From Verrucomicrobiales bacterium (GTDB lineage: Bacteria; Verrucomicrobiota; Verrucomicrobiia; Verrucomicrobiales; V1-33), in NCBI GenBank assembly GCA_028293125.1, contig JAQGPJ010000086.1, forward strand, positions 1-50,480: a stretch of 50,480 nucleotides of DNA, written 5' to 3'. The first letter of the stretch is position 1; every line of letters begins with the position of its first letter. A program made the translations under genes and the position numbers. Shown in pieces: positions 43,755-50,480 of the stretch. Below the pieces are notes generated by a model. It made no database searches and was not told the DNA's origin. It worked only from the letters and a program-made list of their open reading frames with translations.

Positions 43755-44966
43755 CTACGGCTGCGGGCCGATCCCCGGCATGGGGATGATCCTCGGCTCC
43801 GGCAGCATCCCGTGCAGCTGGTCCGCCGGCATGGCAAACAGGTCGCACAGAATCTCGGTGGGCAGCGGCAGCTCCGCCGACATGGCCGCCGCCTGGGCGG
43901 GCAGCCGGCTGTGGACCAGCCGCAGGCATTTGGCGGCCAGACGGCCCACGGTGAGGGGCACCTCCTCCTCGCAGGGCTCGGGCCGTTTGCCCTTCCAGCC
44001 TTTGGAGGAGATTTCCGCATTCAGGACCGTATAGCGTCCGGTGTCAATCCGGTCCAGATCATAGGCGCGGCGCACCATGGCCGACAGGGAGGTGCCCCAT
44101 TTCGGCTTGAGCCGCAGCAGCGCCGGCAGGGTCACCTCCCTCAGATCCTGCAGATCCTGCCGGAAAGCTTCGCAGGGCATCAGAAACGCCCCGGCAAAGG
44201 CATCCGCCTGCTGCTCCATCCGGCGCAGGGTAGCCCGGTCCAGCAGGTCATCCGTGGAGAGGTGCTGATGCAGGACCAGATGCGCCAGCTCATGGGCGGT
44301 GTCGAACCGTGTCCGCGACCGGGAATTCCGGTGCGTGCCCAGGAAAATGAAGGGTCGGGCATTCACCACGCAGGAGAAGGCGTCGAATCCTGTGCCGCCG
44401 ATCTTGGCGGGCACCACCAGCACACCCTTGGATTCCATCAGCTCCGCCAGCTGGTGGATGGGCCTATCCCCCAGGCCCAGCTCCCGGCGGCAGGTCATGG
44501 CCGCCGCCCCGGCGTCAAAAACCGCAGAACTGCCCAGCGCCTCCAGATTGGGAATCCGGCATTCCGGCAGCGCGATTGCCCGGCACACCCACGCCATGGC
44601 CTCGCCCGCCAGCTCGGCCAGCCGACTGGCCTGCAGGTTCAGCCGCCGCAGCCGGGCCGCCGCCGTGGAGCGGAAGGTGATCAGGGGGATCCGGCCCACC
44701 TCCGGCGGGATCGGGGATTGAAAATAAGCCGCCGGCACCGCCAGCAGCCGGGCCATGCGCACGGTGTGGGACATGTCCGGGCGTTTGCTGCCGTTCTCCC
44801 ACTGGGTGATGGCTCCGGGGCTGACCCCCAGATGGTCCGCCAGCGCGCTCTTGGTCAGACCGCGCAGTTCCCGCACCTGAGTGATCCTTTCCGGGATCAC
44901 CCCCTTCTCCCGCCACGGAAAGAGTTCCTGCTGCAGCGGTCTGATATTGTCTCCGGATGCCCCCAT
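43755..44966 (-). CDS. XRE-family regulator fused to ImmA/IrrE metallopeptidase
   Basis: A 403-residue fusion. The N-terminal XRE helix-turn-helix (about 25-80) contains LRGLTKSALADHLGVSPGAITQWENGSKRPD. The central ImmA/IrrE zinc protease domain has the metal-binding helix TAHELAHLVLH (HELAH, about 244), with E/D residues in RMEQQADAFAGAFLMP supplying the third ligand. The C-terminal part (about 320-403) is not recognised. In ICEBs1 and IrrE relatives such proteases cut or act on a repressor. Its gene follows a 224-residue unknown by two bases. Confidence 0.85.
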   Translation of the reverse strand: MGASGDNIRPLQQELFPWREKGVIPERITQVRELRGLTKSALADHLGVSPGAITQWENGSKRPDMSHTVRMARLLAVPAAYFQSPIPPEVGRIPLITFRSTAAARLRRLNLQASRLAELAGEAMAWVCRAIALPECRIPNLEALGSSAVFDAGAAAMTCRRELGLGDRPIHQLAELMESKGVLVVPAKIGGTGFDAFSCVVNARPFIFLGTHRNSRSRTRFDTAHELAHLVLHQHLSTDDLLDRATLRRMEQQADAFAGAFLMPCEAFRQDLQDLREVTLPALLRLKPKWGTSLSAMVRRAYDLDRIDTGRYTVLNAEISSKGWKGKRPEPCEEEVPLTVGRLAAKCLRLVHSRLPAQAAAMSAELPLPTEILCDLFAMPADQLHGMLPEPRIIPMPGIGPQP

Positions 44967-44968
44967 GG

Positions 44969-45643
44969 TCAGACAGCGACCCCTTTTCCATGATCCTCTT
45001 TCCTCTTTTCCCCGGCATGGCCGGTGGCCCCGGTTTCCTGGAACAGCGGGGCCAGTGCGAGCTGCGGCTCGGATTCACTCACGGGCTCGGTCTCAAACAC
45101 CGGCACCGGCCTTCTCTCCTCCATGATGTTGCCCGTCAGCTGCTCATACACCCACGGCTGCTCGTTGTCATAATAAGCCCGCAGGGCCGCGAATTTCTCG
45201 CCTGCATGCACCAGCAGCAGCTGCACGGTGTCGCTGGCCTGCGTGTCGTGCATGAAGGAGAAGGTGAACTGATTGCAGTCCCGCGCCTGACGGCGCAGAT
45301 CGCTGTCCGGCGGGCAGTCCTCGGGATGGGACAGATGCACCACCAGCGTGCGGGTGCTGCGGCCCAGCAGCTCCAAGGAAAAGGGGCCGCTTTTATTAGG
45401 CTGGAACTTCGCTTGGATGCCCTCCAGCCGGCCCTCGCAGCAGGCATGGTAAAGCAGGGCATCGATCATCACCCAGCGCAGGTTTCCCTGGGCGTACATC
45501 CGGTTGGGATTCATCTCCAGCGGGGTGCCGCTGGTCCCGACCGTCCGCCGGGACTCCCGGTAAGCCTGAATCAGGATCTCCCGGAGCACCGCCAGATTGG
45601 CCGGAGTCCAGTCCGCCTTTGAATCCTCAAGGTAATCGCTCAT
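44969..45643 (-). CDS. Unknown protein paired with the XRE-ImmA gene
   Basis: A 224-residue protein that I cannot assign. It is acidic in its last 50 residues (EERRPVPVFETEPVSESEP). The middle is mixed: LLGRSTRTLVVHLSHPEDCPPDSDLRRQ and TVQLLLVHAGEKFAALRAYYDNEQPWVYEQL. It is likely soluble: no signal peptide or membrane helix. The start at 45643 (ATG) is chosen over an in-frame TTG at 45649. The spacing of two bases to the XRE-ImmA gene indicates an operon, the layout of toxin-antitoxin or stress-protease pairs. Its role is unknown. Confidence 0.65.
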   Translation of the reverse strand: MSDYLEDSKADWTPANLAVLREILIQAYRESRRTVGTSGTPLEMNPNRMYAQGNLRWVMIDALLYHACCEGRLEGIQAKFQPNKSGPFSLELLGRSTRTLVVHLSHPEDCPPDSDLRRQARDCNQFTFSFMHDTQASDTVQLLLVHAGEKFAALRAYYDNEQPWVYEQLTGNIMEERRPVPVFETEPVSESEPQLALAPLFQETGATGHAGEKRKEDHGKGVAV

Positions 45644-45932
45644 GGCCAAACAACGTTCAAACGCCAGAAAAGGGCCTCAGGTATGACTTTTCAATTCAAT
45701 TTCTTTACCAGACTGCCTTTTTTGTAAAAATTTTGAACAAGGGGCGGATTTTTTCAATTATTGCACCGCTTGGGATCCACACACTCCCGGAATGGTCCAA
45801 GGGGGGGCGGATTTCACTGCGCCAGCCTCGTCAGGAATCAACCCATTCCTTTGGTAATAAAAGCGAAAGTCGGCGGAGCGGCCGGATGATTTTCCGTTTG
45901 TCAGGCCGGAACGGCTCCGCTTTTCTTTCCGC
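45644..45932. other. AT-rich divergent region between the XRE module and the four-gene operon
   Basis: A 289-base gap, clearly AT-rich from 45680 to 45770, that should hold both divergent promoters. It includes the attenuator-like hairpin at 45873-45928. I see no clean operator for the XRE protein. Confidence 0.5.
45873..45928 (+). terminator. Terminator-like hairpin in the leader of the HDO-desaturase operon
   Basis: GCGGAGC (45873-45879) and GCTCCGC (45914-45920) form a 7-bp stem, with GGCCGG/CCGG pairing inside, followed by TTTTCTTT. It ends about a dozen bases before the ATG of a plus-strand gene while the upstream gene is on the other strand, so a leader attenuator is the best explanation. 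Confidence 0.4.
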
Positions 45933-46736
45933 ATGTCTCTCACCGTGCTTCCGACCGTGACTCCGGAACAATCGCCGTCCCTGATGACCGTGGTGGATGA
46001 CTTGATGCGGCGGTTGCCGATTTTGGATAACGGCTATTTCCAAGGGCTGCGCGATGATTCCCTGAGCCGGGAGGATTTTGTGAGATCGCAGCGGCGGTTT
46101 TATTTCGCGGTGCGGTATTTCCCACGGCCCATGGCGGCCTTGATGGCCCGTATGCCGGTGTCCGCCGGGCGGCAGGGTCTGATGCACAACCTCTCCGAGG
46201 AGCACGGGTTTGTGGAGGGGGACGGTGGGGAGCACGGCGATGATCACGGGCACGGCCATGGCCATGGGGGGAGGTTTGATTTCCGCGCAGCGCATGATCT
46301 GACATTTCTCGCGTTTCTGGGCACGCTGGGGATTCCGGCGGCGGAGATGCAGCGGCAGCGGGAGGAGGCCGCCGTGCGGGCCTTCAACACGGCCCTGATG
46401 GGGACCTGCCTGATGGAGCGCACGGAACTGGCGTTCGCCTGCTTGGGGGTGATCGAATACGCCTTTGCCGATATTTCAGCCCTGATCGGGCGGCAGGTGG
46501 TGGCGCGGGGATGGATCCCGCAGGACCGGCTGGTGCATTATCATCTGCATGCGGAGATCGACAAACGCCATGCGGTGGACTTTTTCCGCGTGGTGGAGGG
46601 TGCCTGGCGGGAGGGAGGCGGACCGGCGGAGGCCGTGGAGGAGGGGCTGAGGCTGGGACTGTATCTGTTCAACCGCCTTTATGAGGATCTCGCGAAACCC
46701 GATCCCGATCCTGTTCCCGCCACTGCCACGCCATGA
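45933..46736 (+). CDS. Haem-oxygenase-like diiron oxidase (TenA/PqqC-fold) with His-rich insert
   Basis: A 267-residue helical protein of the HDO family (iron-containing redox enzymes such as UndA and BesC). Likely iron ligands are E89 or E90 (NLSEEHG), H121 (AAHDLTFLAFLGTLG), E175 (GVIEYAFAD), and H206, D210 and H213 (HAEIDKRHA), in the usual order. Between the first Glu and His lies an insert at about 100-112 with six histidines and two aspartates (HGDDHGHGHGHG), not expected in the family. HDO enzymes oxidise or cleave small acids and amines with O2. First gene of a four-gene operon; it overlaps the next by four bases. Confidence 0.8.
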   Translation: MSLTVLPTVTPEQSPSLMTVVDDLMRRLPILDNGYFQGLRDDSLSREDFVRSQRRFYFAVRYFPRPMAALMARMPVSAGRQGLMHNLSEEHGFVEGDGGEHGDDHGHGHGHGGRFDFRAAHDLTFLAFLGTLGIPAAEMQRQREEAAVRAFNTALMGTCLMERTELAFACLGVIEYAFADISALIGRQVVARGWIPQDRLVHYHLHAEIDKRHAVDFFRVVEGAWREGGGPAEAVEEGLRLGLYLFNRLYEDLAKPDPDPVPATATP

Positions 46737-47698
46737 ATGCCCTGCCCGTTTCCCCGGCCCCGCGTCTGGCGCCGGAACTGGTGAAACAGTGTCACCATGC
46801 CGAAGGCTGGCGGCATGGCCTGCGGCTGCTGTGTTTTGCGGCGCTGTGGCTGGCCGCTGCCTGGGCCGCGGTGGCGCTGGGCGGAAAGGTGGACGCCTGG
46901 TGGCAATGGGCGCTAGTTTGTCCGTTCTATTTGGTGTCGGCGGCGGCCCTGCACGGGATCAGCCTTTTCGCCCATGAGGCAGTGCACGGCACGCTGTCGC
47001 GGAACCGGGTGTGGAATGATCTGGTGGGAGCCCTGTGCGCGCTGCCGGTGCTGCAGAACCACGCCGCCTACCGGGTGCTGCATCTGCGGCACCACCGGCA
47101 TCTGGGAGAAGAGGGGGATCCGGATCATTACGCCAACTACACCCGCTGGTCATGGCTGGTGTTCAGCATGAACTGGCTGCGGCTGCTGATCGGTTATCCG
47201 GTTTATATCCTCGCCATTCCGGTGCTGGGGCTCAAACATGGCACCCGCGGCGCGCGGATGGTGATTCTGGCGGAGGTGGCGGCCGTCCTGGCCGTGGCGG
47301 GGGTCGTTTGGCTGTCGCCCATCCCGGCTGCCTGGGTGATCCATGGCTGGCTGATCCCCATGCTGCTGATCAACACCATGGTGAACATCCGGGGCATGAG
47401 CCAGCACACGCTGCTGGAGCAGGCCAGCGATGAAATCCAAGGCACGCGCACCATCCTGACCAGCGCCCCGGTACGGTTTTTCATGTGCAATGAGAACTAC
47501 CATCTGGAGCACCACCTCTATCCCGGTGTGCCGTGGCATCATCTGCCGGCGGTGCATGCGGCTCTGCGGCCGGAGCTGACGGCGCGCGGCGCGCCTTATA
47601 TCGGATCGTATTCAGCTTTTGTGCGGGAGTTCATGCGTCACAGCATCCGGCGCAGCCCTTGGGGATGGCGGCGAAGCAGAGCCGGCGGAAAGGCCTGA
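46733..47698 (+). CDS. Membrane fatty-acid desaturase/hydroxylase family protein
   Basis: A 321-residue integral membrane diiron enzyme. Four to six hydrophobic segments surround the three histidine boxes: HEAVH (about 82), HLRHHRH (about 118) and YHLEHHLYP (about 263). These bind the iron pair that uses O2 to desaturate or hydroxylate lipid tails. The boxes fit acyl-lipid desaturases and also carotenoid-type oxygenases; the substrate is not defined. The start overlaps the HDO stop (ATGA), so the two are coupled. The tail is basic (WGWRRSRAGGKA). Confidence 0.88.
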   Translation: MNALPVSPAPRLAPELVKQCHHAEGWRHGLRLLCFAALWLAAAWAAVALGGKVDAWWQWALVCPFYLVSAAALHGISLFAHEAVHGTLSRNRVWNDLVGALCALPVLQNHAAYRVLHLRHHRHLGEEGDPDHYANYTRWSWLVFSMNWLRLLIGYPVYILAIPVLGLKHGTRGARMVILAEVAAVLAVAGVVWLSPIPAAWVIHGWLIPMLLINTMVNIRGMSQHTLLEQASDEIQGTRTILTSAPVRFFMCNENYHLEHHLYPGVPWHHLPAVHAALRPELTARGAPYIGSYSAFVREFMRHSIRRSPWGWRRSRAGGKA

Positions 47699-47752
47699 GC
47701 GTGCGCCGGCGGGAGGAACGCGCCTTTCGCTTCTCCGCTCTGATTTTCTGCC

Positions 47753-48913
47753 ATGACAAACTTTGTGCCTGATCCTGCTTTTTCCTCCCCGCCACCGCCC
47801 TCCAGCCCAACGCCTCCGGCATCCGCGGAGTTCTGGGCGGAGGAGGCGGCAAAGCTGCCTTTGGCCTTTGCGCAGGTGCGGGAGGATCCCCGGCTGGATC
47901 TGGCGCTGGCGCGGAGGCTGCCGCCGGGTGCGGCGGTAGTGATGATCGCCTCGGGCGGGGATAGCGCCGCCTGTCTGGCGCGGCTGCCGCTTTCCCGGCT
48001 GCACCTGGTGGATATCAATCCGGCGCAGCTGGCCTTGGCCCGCTGTAAATTGGACTTGGCGGCGACGGTATCACCCGAAGAGGCGGCGGCTTGGCTAGGG
48101 CATGCGCCGCTGCCGGTGGAAATCCGGGCGGAGCGCATTGCGCACCGTCTGGATTCGCTTGGGCTGCCGGCGGAGGCGCTGGGCCCGCTGGAGACATTGG
48201 CGTCCTTGGGACCGGATCATGCGGGGCGGTACGAGCGCTGCTTCGCGGAGCTTCAGACGGCTTTGTCCCCTTGGCGGGAGGCATTGATCACGGTGCTGGG
48301 TTCGGCCGATCCGCCGGCGGCTGCGGCGGCGGTAGCCCCGGACACGCCACTGGGGCAGGCTTTGGACACGGCGTTCACGCGGGTGATGTCCCTGGCCAAT
48401 CTCGTGTGTCTGTTCGGCGAAGGCGCGACCCGGAATCCCCGCCAACCGTTTTCCTGTCACTTCCTGGAGCGGCTGCGGCTGGGGCTGGAGCGCTTCCCTG
48501 CCAGAGAGAACCCGTTTCTGCATCAGCTGCTGACAGGCACCTTCCCCATAAGCGGAGGATATGACTGGCTGTCCGAAGCCGGAAGCCCCGGCGGACCGCC
48601 CGGAGCGGAACCGGTTTTCCACTTGGGCGCCATGACCGCCGCGCTGGAGTCTATGCCGGCGGAAAGCATGGACTTCGCGCATTTGTCAAACATCCTCGAC
48701 TGGCTGTCGCCGGCGGAGGCGGAGGGCGTGCTGGCAGCGGCCTGCCGCGTCCTGCGACCGGGCGGGCGGATCATTCTGCGCCAGCTGAACTCCACCTTGG
48801 ACATCGCCGCGCTGGATTCGGGCATTGCCTGGGACTTGGAGGAGGGCGCACGCTTTGAGCAGGCGGACCGCAGCTTTTTCTATCCAGGCATTTTCACGGG
48901 CCGGCGGCGGTGA
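47753..48913 (+). CDS. DUF3419 (BtaA-like) 3-amino-3-carboxypropyl transferase
   Basis: A 386-residue protein. The family opening FAQVREDPRLDLALA and SAM-binding VVMIASGGDSAACLARL (about 60-80) with HLVDINPAQLALARCKL match BtaA, which moves the 3-amino-3-carboxypropyl group of SAM to diacylglycerol in betaine-lipid synthesis. The end has LSNILDWLSPAEAEGVLAAACRVLRPGGRIILRQ, as in BtaA. The first 30 residues are Pro/Ser-rich. No BtaB-like N-methyltransferase lies next to it. It follows the desaturase by 54 bases. The acceptor is therefore inferred, not shown. Confidence 0.85.
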   Translation: MTNFVPDPAFSSPPPPSSPTPPASAEFWAEEAAKLPLAFAQVREDPRLDLALARRLPPGAAVVMIASGGDSAACLARLPLSRLHLVDINPAQLALARCKLDLAATVSPEEAAAWLGHAPLPVEIRAERIAHRLDSLGLPAEALGPLETLASLGPDHAGRYERCFAELQTALSPWREALITVLGSADPPAAAAAVAPDTPLGQALDTAFTRVMSLANLVCLFGEGATRNPRQPFSCHFLERLRLGLERFPARENPFLHQLLTGTFPISGGYDWLSEAGSPGGPPGAEPVFHLGAMTAALESMPAESMDFAHLSNILDWLSPAEAEGVLAAACRVLRPGGRIILRQLNSTLDIAALDSGIAWDLEEGARFEQADRSFFYPGIFTGRRR

Positions 48914-48957
48914 GGTTGTGGGATTGTGAGGTTTTGACTCTCTGACTTTCTAACCTT

Positions 48958-50013
48958 GTGAAAATCGAGCCCCTCCTCTCCGCCCCTGATGCCTGTCTGA
49001 CCGCCGCGCTGGCGGAGTTCGAGCGCCGGTTTCTATATCCACTGGGGGAAAGGCAGCGCTTTCGCATCGCCCACGGGGCGGATTACCGGGCGTTTTTCCA
49101 AGCCATGGGGGAGGCGCGGGTGCTGATGGCCGTCAGGCGCGGCGGTCAGTCCGTGAACCAGCTGGGGACTAAAGTGGCTAAGCAAACCAACGAGGCTGGG
49201 GATCCTGAGGAGGTTGTTTCCATTCTGGGCACCTTGGCCTATGTCCGGCGGCATCTCCTGTTCCGAACGCAGGGAGCCGACAGCGCGGCACAGGCCTTGG
49301 AGTCACACTATTTCTGCGATTTGAAAGTGCGCCCGGAAGCCCGCGGCGTACCCGCGTTGGCCGGTCTGATTGCGGCGGCGAAGGCGGAGATCGAACCCGG
49401 CCCGCTGCACGCCTGCCACGCCATCGTCATGGACGGGACGGAGCGTCCGCCACTGGCCTACACCGGGCGGCTGGGTGTTCCGCAGTTCCAGAAACTGGGA
49501 GAGATCATGATCCTGCGTCTTCCCGCTCTGCATCCGCGCCCGGAGACGCACCCGTCAGGCGGGACCATCCGCGATGTCAGCAACGCTGATGTCAGGGACA
49601 TTCAACGACGCTTGGCTCCGTCGGGATTTCTGCTCACGGGCGGCGACAGCTCCCTACGCTCGATCATGCCGCCCCGCCCTCTCGCGGACGCGGAGGGTCT
49701 GGCCAGCGGCACCGTGGAGGACACACGGAAAGCAAAGCGCCTCCTCACCGAGGATAGCGGTGAAATTCTGTCCGCCCATCTCTCCGGTTTTGTCAGCACT
49801 TCGCCCGCACGGGGAGCCGCTCTCCTGCGCCAGGCACTGGCCGTGGCCTTGGAGGCGGGACTGCCGGCGCTTTTTGTTTCCATGCCGCGCGTTGAGGCGG
49901 GCGCTTTGTTGACGGAGTTGAACGATCCGGAAATCACTTTGGCTCCGGCCACTGTCTTTGGCCACGCCCTTCCTGCAGGACACGACTGGCGCGTCGATAC
50001 GGCGGAGATTTGA
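48958..50013 (+). CDS. GNAT-like acyltransferase, last gene of the HDO-desaturase-BtaA operon
   Basis: A 351-residue protein, GTG start at 48958, 44 bases after the DUF3419 gene. The N-terminal half resembles the N-acyltransferase branch of the GNAT fold: LYPLGERQRFRIAHG, ARVLMAVRRGGQSV, then SHYFCDLKVRPEARGVPALAGLIAAAK, which lies where the CoA/acyl loop sits (R-x-x-G), and PLAYTGRLGVPQFQKLGE at the end. The C-terminal half (about 205-351) is not recognised. The acyl donor and acceptor are unknown. As part of the operon it could acylate an amino group made available by the BtaA-like protein; this is a hypothesis. Confidence 0.6.
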   Translation: MKIEPLLSAPDACLTAALAEFERRFLYPLGERQRFRIAHGADYRAFFQAMGEARVLMAVRRGGQSVNQLGTKVAKQTNEAGDPEEVVSILGTLAYVRRHLLFRTQGADSAAQALESHYFCDLKVRPEARGVPALAGLIAAAKAEIEPGPLHACHAIVMDGTERPPLAYTGRLGVPQFQKLGEIMILRLPALHPRPETHPSGGTIRDVSNADVRDIQRRLAPSGFLLTGGDSSLRSIMPPRPLADAEGLASGTVEDTRKAKRLLTEDSGEILSAHLSGFVSTSPARGAALLRQALAVALEAGLPALFVSMPRVEAGALLTELNDPEITLAPATVFGHALPAGHDWRVDTAEI

Positions 50014-50015
50014 TA

Positions 50016-50216
50016 CTAAGGTTGAACCCAACCCTCCTGGATCATCTTTTCGATGACAACCGGCCGCAGTTGCTTCTGCATACTGGCCCGCCAGCTGTAA
50101 AGAAGACCGGCGCTGATGCGGAGCTCCTCGGCGAGCTCCTGAACGGGCATTCCCGTGGCCAGCAGTTCCGCGGCTCGGGCTTTGAATTCGGGGCTGTAAT
50201 GTTGGTTCTGCTTCAT
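50016..50216 (-). pseudogene. IS3-family OrfA-like transposase fragment
   Basis: A 66-residue frame beginning MKQNQHYSPEFKARAAELL with the helix-turn-helix LAEELRISAGLLYSWR of IS3-type OrfA proteins. After this helix the family normally continues into a leucine-zipper segment; here the sequence departs (ASMQKQLRPV) and stops, and no OrfB follows downstream on this strand. It reads as a relic. Terminal repeats of the element were not found. Confidence 0.55.
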
Positions 50217-50480
50217 GGTTTATTCTGGAGATTCCTGGTCCAGAAATCTACCGCGCCTCAGTTTCAGGTTTCAGGTTAAGAAATTCATAAAATAGGTCCA
50301 TGCCCACATGCTTCTCCTATCCGTGAGACCACTCTCCAAGCGCCATAAACTTCCCACGGGACATTGAAAAGCAATCAAAATGTTCGTGTGGATTTTTTAA
50401 TTGGTGCTATGGTTTCAACCAAGGAGGACCGGCGGATTTCCCGCTGGTTCCCTCCGGAAACCGTTCAAATTTCTGAGCGC
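50217..50480. other. Right-end intergenic sequence
   Basis: A 264-base region that is AT-rich from about 50270 to 50410. It has a TTTCAGG direct repeat at about 50260-50275 and no clear gene except a short open frame at the right edge. Confidence 0.4.
50409..50480 (+). CDS. Possible start of an unknown gene, cut by window end
   Basis: An ATG at 50409 opens a frame that runs to the end of the window (24 codons: MVSTKEDRRISRWFPPETV and so on). The N terminus is charged and shows no signal peptide. No Shine-Dalgarno lies upstream. Too short to assign or to confirm as coding. Confidence 0.2.
   Translation, partial: MVSTKEDRRISRWFPPETVQISER

Follow-up and report, generated by a model that had tools for sequence, protein, structure and literature searches.

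A conserved operon of Verrucomicrobiales that joins a BtaA-like enzyme to diiron and N-myristoyltransferase-like partners: a candidate pathway for an N-acylated amino-acid lipid

A contig of 50480 bases from a Verrucomicrobiales bacterium (G000:C52, the whole of which is referred to here as the window) carries close to its 3' end four tightly packed genes, which raise the question of what a BtaA-like enzyme could make in the company of two diiron enzymes and an acyltransferase. A first-pass annotation of this DNA had described the four genes as a haem-oxygenase-like diiron oxidase/oxygenase (HDO), a membrane desaturase (DES), a BtaA-like DUF3419 protein (BTA) and a GNAT-like acyltransferase, and the open reading frames (ORFs) and their spacing were confirmed, with genes 1 and 2 overlapping by 4 bases and gaps of 54 and 44 bases separating genes 2 and 3 and genes 3 and 4, respectively (Table 1). 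All four families were also correctly named, although gene 4 can now be refined to a predicted tandem GNAT resembling N-myristoyltransferase (NMT) and not a single GNAT of the OlsB type. Our results show that the four genes are a conserved biosynthetic operon, for which no description was found in the open-access literature searched. The chances are about even that its enzymes form a dedicated route to an amino-acid lipid that is oxidised and N-acylated and draws its head-group carbon from S-adenosylmethionine (SAM).

Conservation was assessed in 94 relatives at the level of the order, in 388 genomes of the phylum and, with the gene-3 alignment as query, in 84,980 species genomes. Eight of the 94 relatives have a full orthologue of gene 3 (about 51-57% identity), and all eight have the identical order HDO-DES-(x)-DUF3419-GNAT. 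Eight relatives with all four orthologues in an unchanged order are far more than chance would give. Five of them have at x a further gene, coding for about 250-270 amino acids of the PAP2_3 family (PF14378, 9e-11 in L055, L055 and G093 being one contig region). Across the phylum, five genomes contain the gene-3 subfamily (E below 1e-90), and it is these five and no others that contain gene 4 (E below 1e-20); the remaining DUF3419 homologues (E no better than 6e-37) lack a strong gene 4. A decayed remnant of the operon is seen in G001, a sister species in the genus, where a desaturase tail and about the first 50 residues of gene 3 are followed by unrelated sequence (L036, 2131-2540).

The wide scan returned 67 loci from Verrucomicrobiota, Planctomycetota, Gammaproteobacteria, Vulcanimicrobiota (Eremiobacterota), Chlamydiota, Dependentiae, Elusimicrobiota, Myxococcota and one Rickettsiaceae metagenome-assembled genome (MAG), several of these phylum records being single MAGs in which binning errors are possible. 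The core trio of genes 1, 3 and 4 is complete in 58 of the 67 loci, and the loci that have it come from at least seven phyla. The other nine comprise three real exceptions (L101, L109 and L110); the rest are cut contigs or, in L085, a locus where all three genes were detected by tblastn. Most neighboring core genes overlap or lie directly end to end (median gaps -4 to 1 bases), the pair most often linked being genes 3 and 4 (55/59 within 100 bases). The core occurs in two orders, HDO first and HDO last, and in the gene-3 tree the HDO-first rows fall into one 30-row group (support 100/99), except for the distant locus L111. Genes 1, 3 and 4 are inherited as a unit. The first-pass annotation had proposed a neighborhood search for the four genes as one set; conservation far outside close relatives was indeed found, but it is the trio that is conserved, the desaturase being present in just 40 of the 67 loci. 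PAP2 was found in 18 loci, always accompanied by DES.

The same linkage was obtained when Planctomycetota were searched with gene 4 alone. This search gave 16 strong places, with gene 3 adjoining at 14 of the 14 examined and HDO also present in 10 of the 12 that are untruncated. Sequenced isolates with the core include Verrucomicrobium sp. BvORR034 and BvORR106, Haloferula sp. BvORR071 and Roseiconus nitratireducens JC645. Pfam scans of the genes flanking the minimal loci revealed no recurring sixth partner (DnaA, MreB, PAS kinase, VTT and alpha/beta hydrolase were among those seen), and clustering of the ORFs outside the core showed conservation solely among near relatives; an apparent ORF that precedes the core in L070 was discarded as an artefact of the wrong reading frame. 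Four distant homologues of gene 4 (about 362-385 amino acids) in Chlamydiota, L175-L178, do not have genes 1 and 3 nearby.

Table 1. Genes of the operon, with positions in the window
Gene	Product	Position	Strand	Length	Family match or basis
1, HDO	Haem-oxygenase-like diiron oxidase/oxygenase	45933-46736	+	267 aa	PF14518 Haem_oxygenas_2, 2.8e-10
2, DES	Membrane fatty-acid-desaturase-type diiron enzyme	46733-47698	+	321 aa	PF00487 FA_desaturase, 1.4e-45
3, BTA	BtaA-like DUF3419, putative SAM-dependent 3-amino-3-carboxypropyl transferase	47753-48913	+	386 aa	PF11899, 1.7e-21
4, GNAT	Tandem-GNAT, NMT-like N-acyltransferase (predicted)	48958-50013	+	351 aa, GTG start	Predicted structure

Gene 3 matches PF11899 with 77.2 bits against a cut-off of 28.2, a match that would suit the production of an ordinary betaine lipid (DGTS or DGHS), with gene 3 simply a BtaA and the other genes bystanders. 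The predicted model (pLDDT 94.3) bore out the structural check proposed for this protein, showing a class I SAM-methyltransferase core with a long helical insert, and its best structural matches are SAM methyltransferase chains (Z 13). Family and fold are therefore shared with the BtaA/BtaB pathway, as presumably is the transfer of a 3-amino-3-carboxypropyl group. However, gene 3 has a motif set of its own (LAFAQVREDP, ASGGD/ETA, VD.NPAQ, HLSNILDWL and RQLNS), its constant partners are HDO and an NMT-like GNAT, and it is only 18-23% identical to the canonical BtaA proteins and to a further group of DUF3419 proteins. When compared with two canonical BtaA references, taken as such for adjoining a BtaB-like methyltransferase (L042 and L044), identity was 18%, with E44-D45, S67, G69, N89, Q92, D372 and Y377 in common; the family motifs SxG and VDxNPxQ are represented here by S67, G69, N89 and Q92, which are invariant in canonical BtaA too. 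By its sequence and model, gene 3 encodes a DUF3419/BtaA-type SAM enzyme of a distinct subfamily.

No partner N-methyltransferase BtaB is encoded within the operon, as had been pointed out in the first-pass annotation, which also allowed for a btaB elsewhere that would yield ordinary betaine lipid with this protein. A search of the genome (99% complete) with a real btaB as query gave weak partial methyltransferase matches only and no convincing orthologue, and the genome holds a single DUF3419 gene, no second one having been found. The relative G079, in turn, holds a canonical btaA-btaB pair (L044) in addition to this operon (L034), so the two systems are not redundant. These three observations make an ordinary betaine lipid unlikely, and the reading was rejected once the canonical pair was found in G079; the trio also travels together across phyla and occurs in fused form, and the other DUF3419 homologues of the phylum come without a strong gene 4. 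Taken together, we regard an ordinary betaine lipid as extremely improbable. A second DUF3419 subfamily in Verrucomicrobiota (motifs YAQVWEDAD and NLSDIFEYMS), located directly 3' of a PEP-synthase/RedH-like protein (L039 4112-7827 and L043 3451-7538), apparently belongs to another pathway.

The HDO encoded by gene 1 is the partner through which the amino-acid part of the product may be oxidised. A profile of 39 HDO homologues matched CADD (3e-18), BesC (2e-11) and UndA (entries 4wwj/4wwz/4wx0, 0.009). Residues E90, H121, E175, H206, D210 and H213 are invariant in the 39 sequences and would be the metal ligands, since they fit the HDO ligand pattern; by its sequence, gene 1 codes for an HDO-type diiron enzyme with intact metal ligands. 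CADD, a 4-aminobenzoate synthase, and BesC, a 4-chloro-allylglycine synthase, resemble gene 1 significantly at the profile level and show its ligand pattern, but their genomic context differs from that of gene 1. The sacrificial Tyr27 of CADD corresponds to Phe36 in the gene-1 protein (hand reading of the profile alignment), so that the sacrificial tyrosine of the self-sacrificing 4-aminobenzoate synthases of the CADD type is lacking. The HDO of the window also contains a His-rich insert (HGDDHGHGHGHGG) at residues near 104-113 (window about 46240-46272) that is not present in the aligned orthologues.

Gene fusions connect these enzymes further. In a Parachlamydiaceae MAG (L098, 1506-3344) and a Dependentiae MAG (L091, 7911-9743), genes 3 and 1 form one ORF each, of about 610 amino acids, with PF11899 followed by PF14518, which links genes 3 and 1 to successive or coupled steps. 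Both fusions start with a hydrophobic, signal-peptide-like stretch (e.g. MFKNFLIPLVLFSSPLLQAK) that is absent from the free-living versions; export or membrane anchoring of a SAM enzyme in intracellular bacteria would be odd. The desaturase has a single fusion of its own, DES and PAP2 being one protein of 644 amino acids in L082 (Planctomycetota), which ties the desaturase to lipid chemistry. Gene 2 itself has the three His boxes HEAVH (81-85), HLRHH (117-121) and HLEHH (257-261), the histidines of which are all invariant in nine orthologues (60-67% identity), and its best NCBIfam match, GntB, is far under the cut-off. With these boxes and its PF00487 match, gene 2 encodes a membrane desaturase/hydroxylase.

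The trio is also found on a plasmid of Mycobacterium riyadhense (L116 10261-15922, NZ_OY970457.1), where DUF3419-HDO-GNAT, the GNAT ending in NTAEI, is followed by an MmpL (MMPL-family) transporter gene (TIGR00833, 1123 bits vs a cut-off of 875). PE/PPE genes and recombinases adjoin this plasmid trio. The cargo of MmpL proteins can be siderophores and not just lipids, and the transporter is consistent as well with a small-molecule pathway. In this pathway gene 3 would place the C4 amino acid from SAM on an acceptor other than a lipid, HDO would convert it oxidatively (fragmentation, ring closure or desaturation) and gene 4 would N-acylate it. The result would be a lipophilic natural product for export, resembling a siderophore, a signal or an antibiotic, with DES and PAP2 as optional tailoring enzymes. 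The HDO profile, with its nearest matches in CADD and BesC, both enzymes of amino-acid-type substrates, the many loci with the trio alone and a patchy, multi-phylum and partly plasmid-borne distribution typical of specialised metabolites all speak for such a product. Yet the loci examined show no NRPS, PKS, carrier protein or ligase alongside the trio, nor any transporter or regulator on a consistent basis, and PAP2, the membrane desaturase partners and the long-chain acyltransferase fold of NMT type point to membrane lipids instead. On this evidence we consider a small-molecule pathway possible, though unlikely. For the lipid product we favor, the association with PAP2, the desaturase-PAP2 fusion, the Mycobacterium MmpL and the NMT-like fold of gene 4 are new support.

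The main addition made here concerns gene 4. Gene 4 itself matched no Pfam or NCBIfam family, but among 50 aligned homologues there are matches to two GNAT families, Acetyltransf_9 in 26 and Acetyltransf_1 in 24 (best E 3e-6). OlsB-type N-acyltransferases belong to PF13444 (PMC11631085), for which no match was obtained up to E 1 in the 50 homologues. Structure prediction, which had been suggested for this protein too, gave a tandem GNAT with a pLDDT of 92.7, and the 50 best chains listed in both structural comparisons are all eukaryotic NMTs (Z 19-20), with alignments of about 290 residues that extend along the entire chain. The top match (Z 20.0, rmsd 3.6 A) aligns 294 residues and spans residues 1-351 of the model, and in most rows the alignments reach the last residue of both proteins. 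Neither gene 4 nor its profile gave anything significant when searched by sequence only against solved structures; NMT was seen through fold comparison alone. Relative to its homologues and orthologues, the gene-4 protein of the window has an insert of roughly 26 residues at about 61-86 (window about 49140-49215).

The C-terminus of gene 4 is fixed to a degree not seen in the other three operon proteins, whose C-termini vary. The 3' end is complete in 58 homologues, of which 56 terminate in Ile and one in Val (consensus [ST][AS]E-I), and the window protein ends in ...DTAEI. In human NMT1 the catalytic base is the C-terminal carboxylate of Gln496 (PMC7048800), and a review of the GNATs describes a C-terminal carboxylate base as unique to NMT within the superfamily (PMC4964394). 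Because the NMT fold is found together with a fixed C-terminus, and the base of NMT is a C-terminal carboxylate, NMT-like N-acylation is the best reading of gene 4, whose model indicates a tandem GNAT of NMT architecture with a fixed C-terminal residue. The likeness to eukaryotic NMT lies in the whole-length fold and in an end at a fixed residue, as a carboxylate base would require, whereas gene 4 is bacterial and shorter and is located in a metabolic operon.

Two other roles for gene 4 have to be considered. The whole-length match to NMT would also suit a protein N-acyltransferase, that is, a prokaryotic myristoylation enzyme, or a tandem GNAT of FemX/aminoacyl-tRNA type, with the operon modifying a protein or the cell wall. 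The obligate linkage of gene 4 to small-molecule/lipid enzymes and the lack of a conserved peptide-substrate gene in the loci argue against this role, which seems to us very improbable; the 50 chains listed include none from FemX and tRNA-dependent families, nor from LuxI or further GNATs of tandem or single type, though such chains may lie outside that list. GNAT-fold enzymes of the LuxI type acylate SAM, and by the same logic gene 4 could acylate the SAM amino group first, after which gene 3 would transfer the N-acyl-aminocarboxypropyl group or release an N-acyl-homoserine derivative. The close linkage of genes 3 and 4 agrees with this order, but the closest fold in the chains listed is NMT and not LuxI, no LuxI family match was found in the 50 homologues, and the fusion of HDO to gene 3 argues that HDO, not the GNAT, acts next. 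Acylation of SAM by gene 4 is accordingly held to be improbable.

The product is most likely an N-acylated, oxidised aminocarboxypropyl (homoserine-type) lipid and not a betaine lipid, and most likely either a new membrane lipid or an exported lipid. In the pathway we propose for it, gene 3 would move the 3-amino-3-carboxypropyl group of SAM onto a lipid hydroxyl, the default acceptor, by analogy to BtaA, being diacylglycerol, which the PAP2 phosphatase found in many relatives could supply from phosphatidic acid. HDO, sometimes fused to gene 3, would oxidise the new amino-acid moiety, the NMT-like enzyme would acylate its amino group from acyl-CoA or acyl-ACP with the C-terminal carboxylate as base, and the desaturase may alter either an acyl chain or the head group, these last three steps being given in no particular order. 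The free amine is what canonical BtaB would methylate, and the constant partner in this operon is instead an acyltransferase. An N-acylated or oxidatively cleaved homoserine-type lipid or metabolite had been the suggestion of the first-pass annotation, and the conserved neighborhood, the lack of btaB, PAP2, MmpL and the NMT-like fold support it in part, the product itself still being a prediction. The full version, in which the operon makes an N-acylated (and oxidised) homoserine-ether lipid through a BtaA-type enzyme and an acyltransferase that is structurally and mechanistically an NMT, catalysis by the C-terminal carboxylate included, is put forward tentatively and is doubtful as a whole.

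Several observations weigh against the proposed lipid pathway. Its substrates, the order of its steps and its product are all inferred, and with 18% identity to canonical BtaA, gene 3 may use an acceptor other than diacylglycerol. A scan for a Pho-box-like site near the operon was negative. DES and PAP2 are both absent from 16 BTA-GNAT-HDO and 4 GNAT-BTA-HDO loci, and with so many such loci the core alone does not force a lipid product; it is partly because of these approximately 20 loci that we go no higher than an even chance. The match between gene 4 and NMT is one of fold only, at about 10% sequence identity. The NMT PROSITE signatures (EINFLCxHK and KFGxGDG) occur in none of 63 gene-4 sequences, and the Pfam NMT family has no match among the 50 homologues; because the signature motifs are absent, gene 4 is better said to work like an NMT than to be one. 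The fixed C-terminus of gene 4 could have a structural reason.

Aminolipid synthesis with head-group transfer of the BtaA type is a known theme, and there is a real chance that gene 4 is the more novel element. The nearest known routes are BtaAB, the OlsB/OlsF type and the OlsH/OlsI route of planctomycetes, none of which, as described, uses HDO and NMT-like GNAT partners. OlsB, GlsB and GluB, as well as OlsH/OlsI, share with the predicted function of the operon the N-acylation of an amino acid to give a phosphorus-free aminolipid, but the OlsB/OlsF-type and OlsH/OlsI routes have no DUF3419 or HDO partners as described (PMC11631085, PMC12493201), and planctomycete OlsH is a GH3-like ATP-dependent enzyme (PMC12493201). 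If our proposal is true, the known betaine and ornithine lipids would be joined by a class of aminolipids that contains no phosphorus and derives from SAM. Its producers would be Verrucomicrobiota and Planctomycetota of the environment, some Chlamydiota and at least one bacterium that carries a mycobacterial plasmid, and the genes would serve as markers for searching unassigned lipidomes. It would likewise give a first function to the DUF3419 subfamily of gene 3 and a new class of substrate to the HDOs. With a bacterial counterpart of the NMT fold, the origin of NMT and of C-terminal-carboxylate catalysis would become testable, and the synthesis of small-molecule lipids in bacteria would be a possible ancestral setting for that fold.

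Two further features lie next to the operon in the window. On the minus strand at 43755-45649, a gene for a protein with a helix-turn-helix (HTH) and an IrrE-peptidase part (NF052239, spr1629 repressor/antitoxin, 184 bits, below the cut-off) adjoins a gene on the same strand for a 226-amino acid protein without a family match, and the two are possibly a toxin-antitoxin-like pair. A short ORF on the minus strand 3' of gene 4, at about 50020-50220 and near the end of the contig, resembles the HTH part of an IS-element transposase (MKQNQHYSPEFKARAAELLATGMPVQELAEELRIS...).

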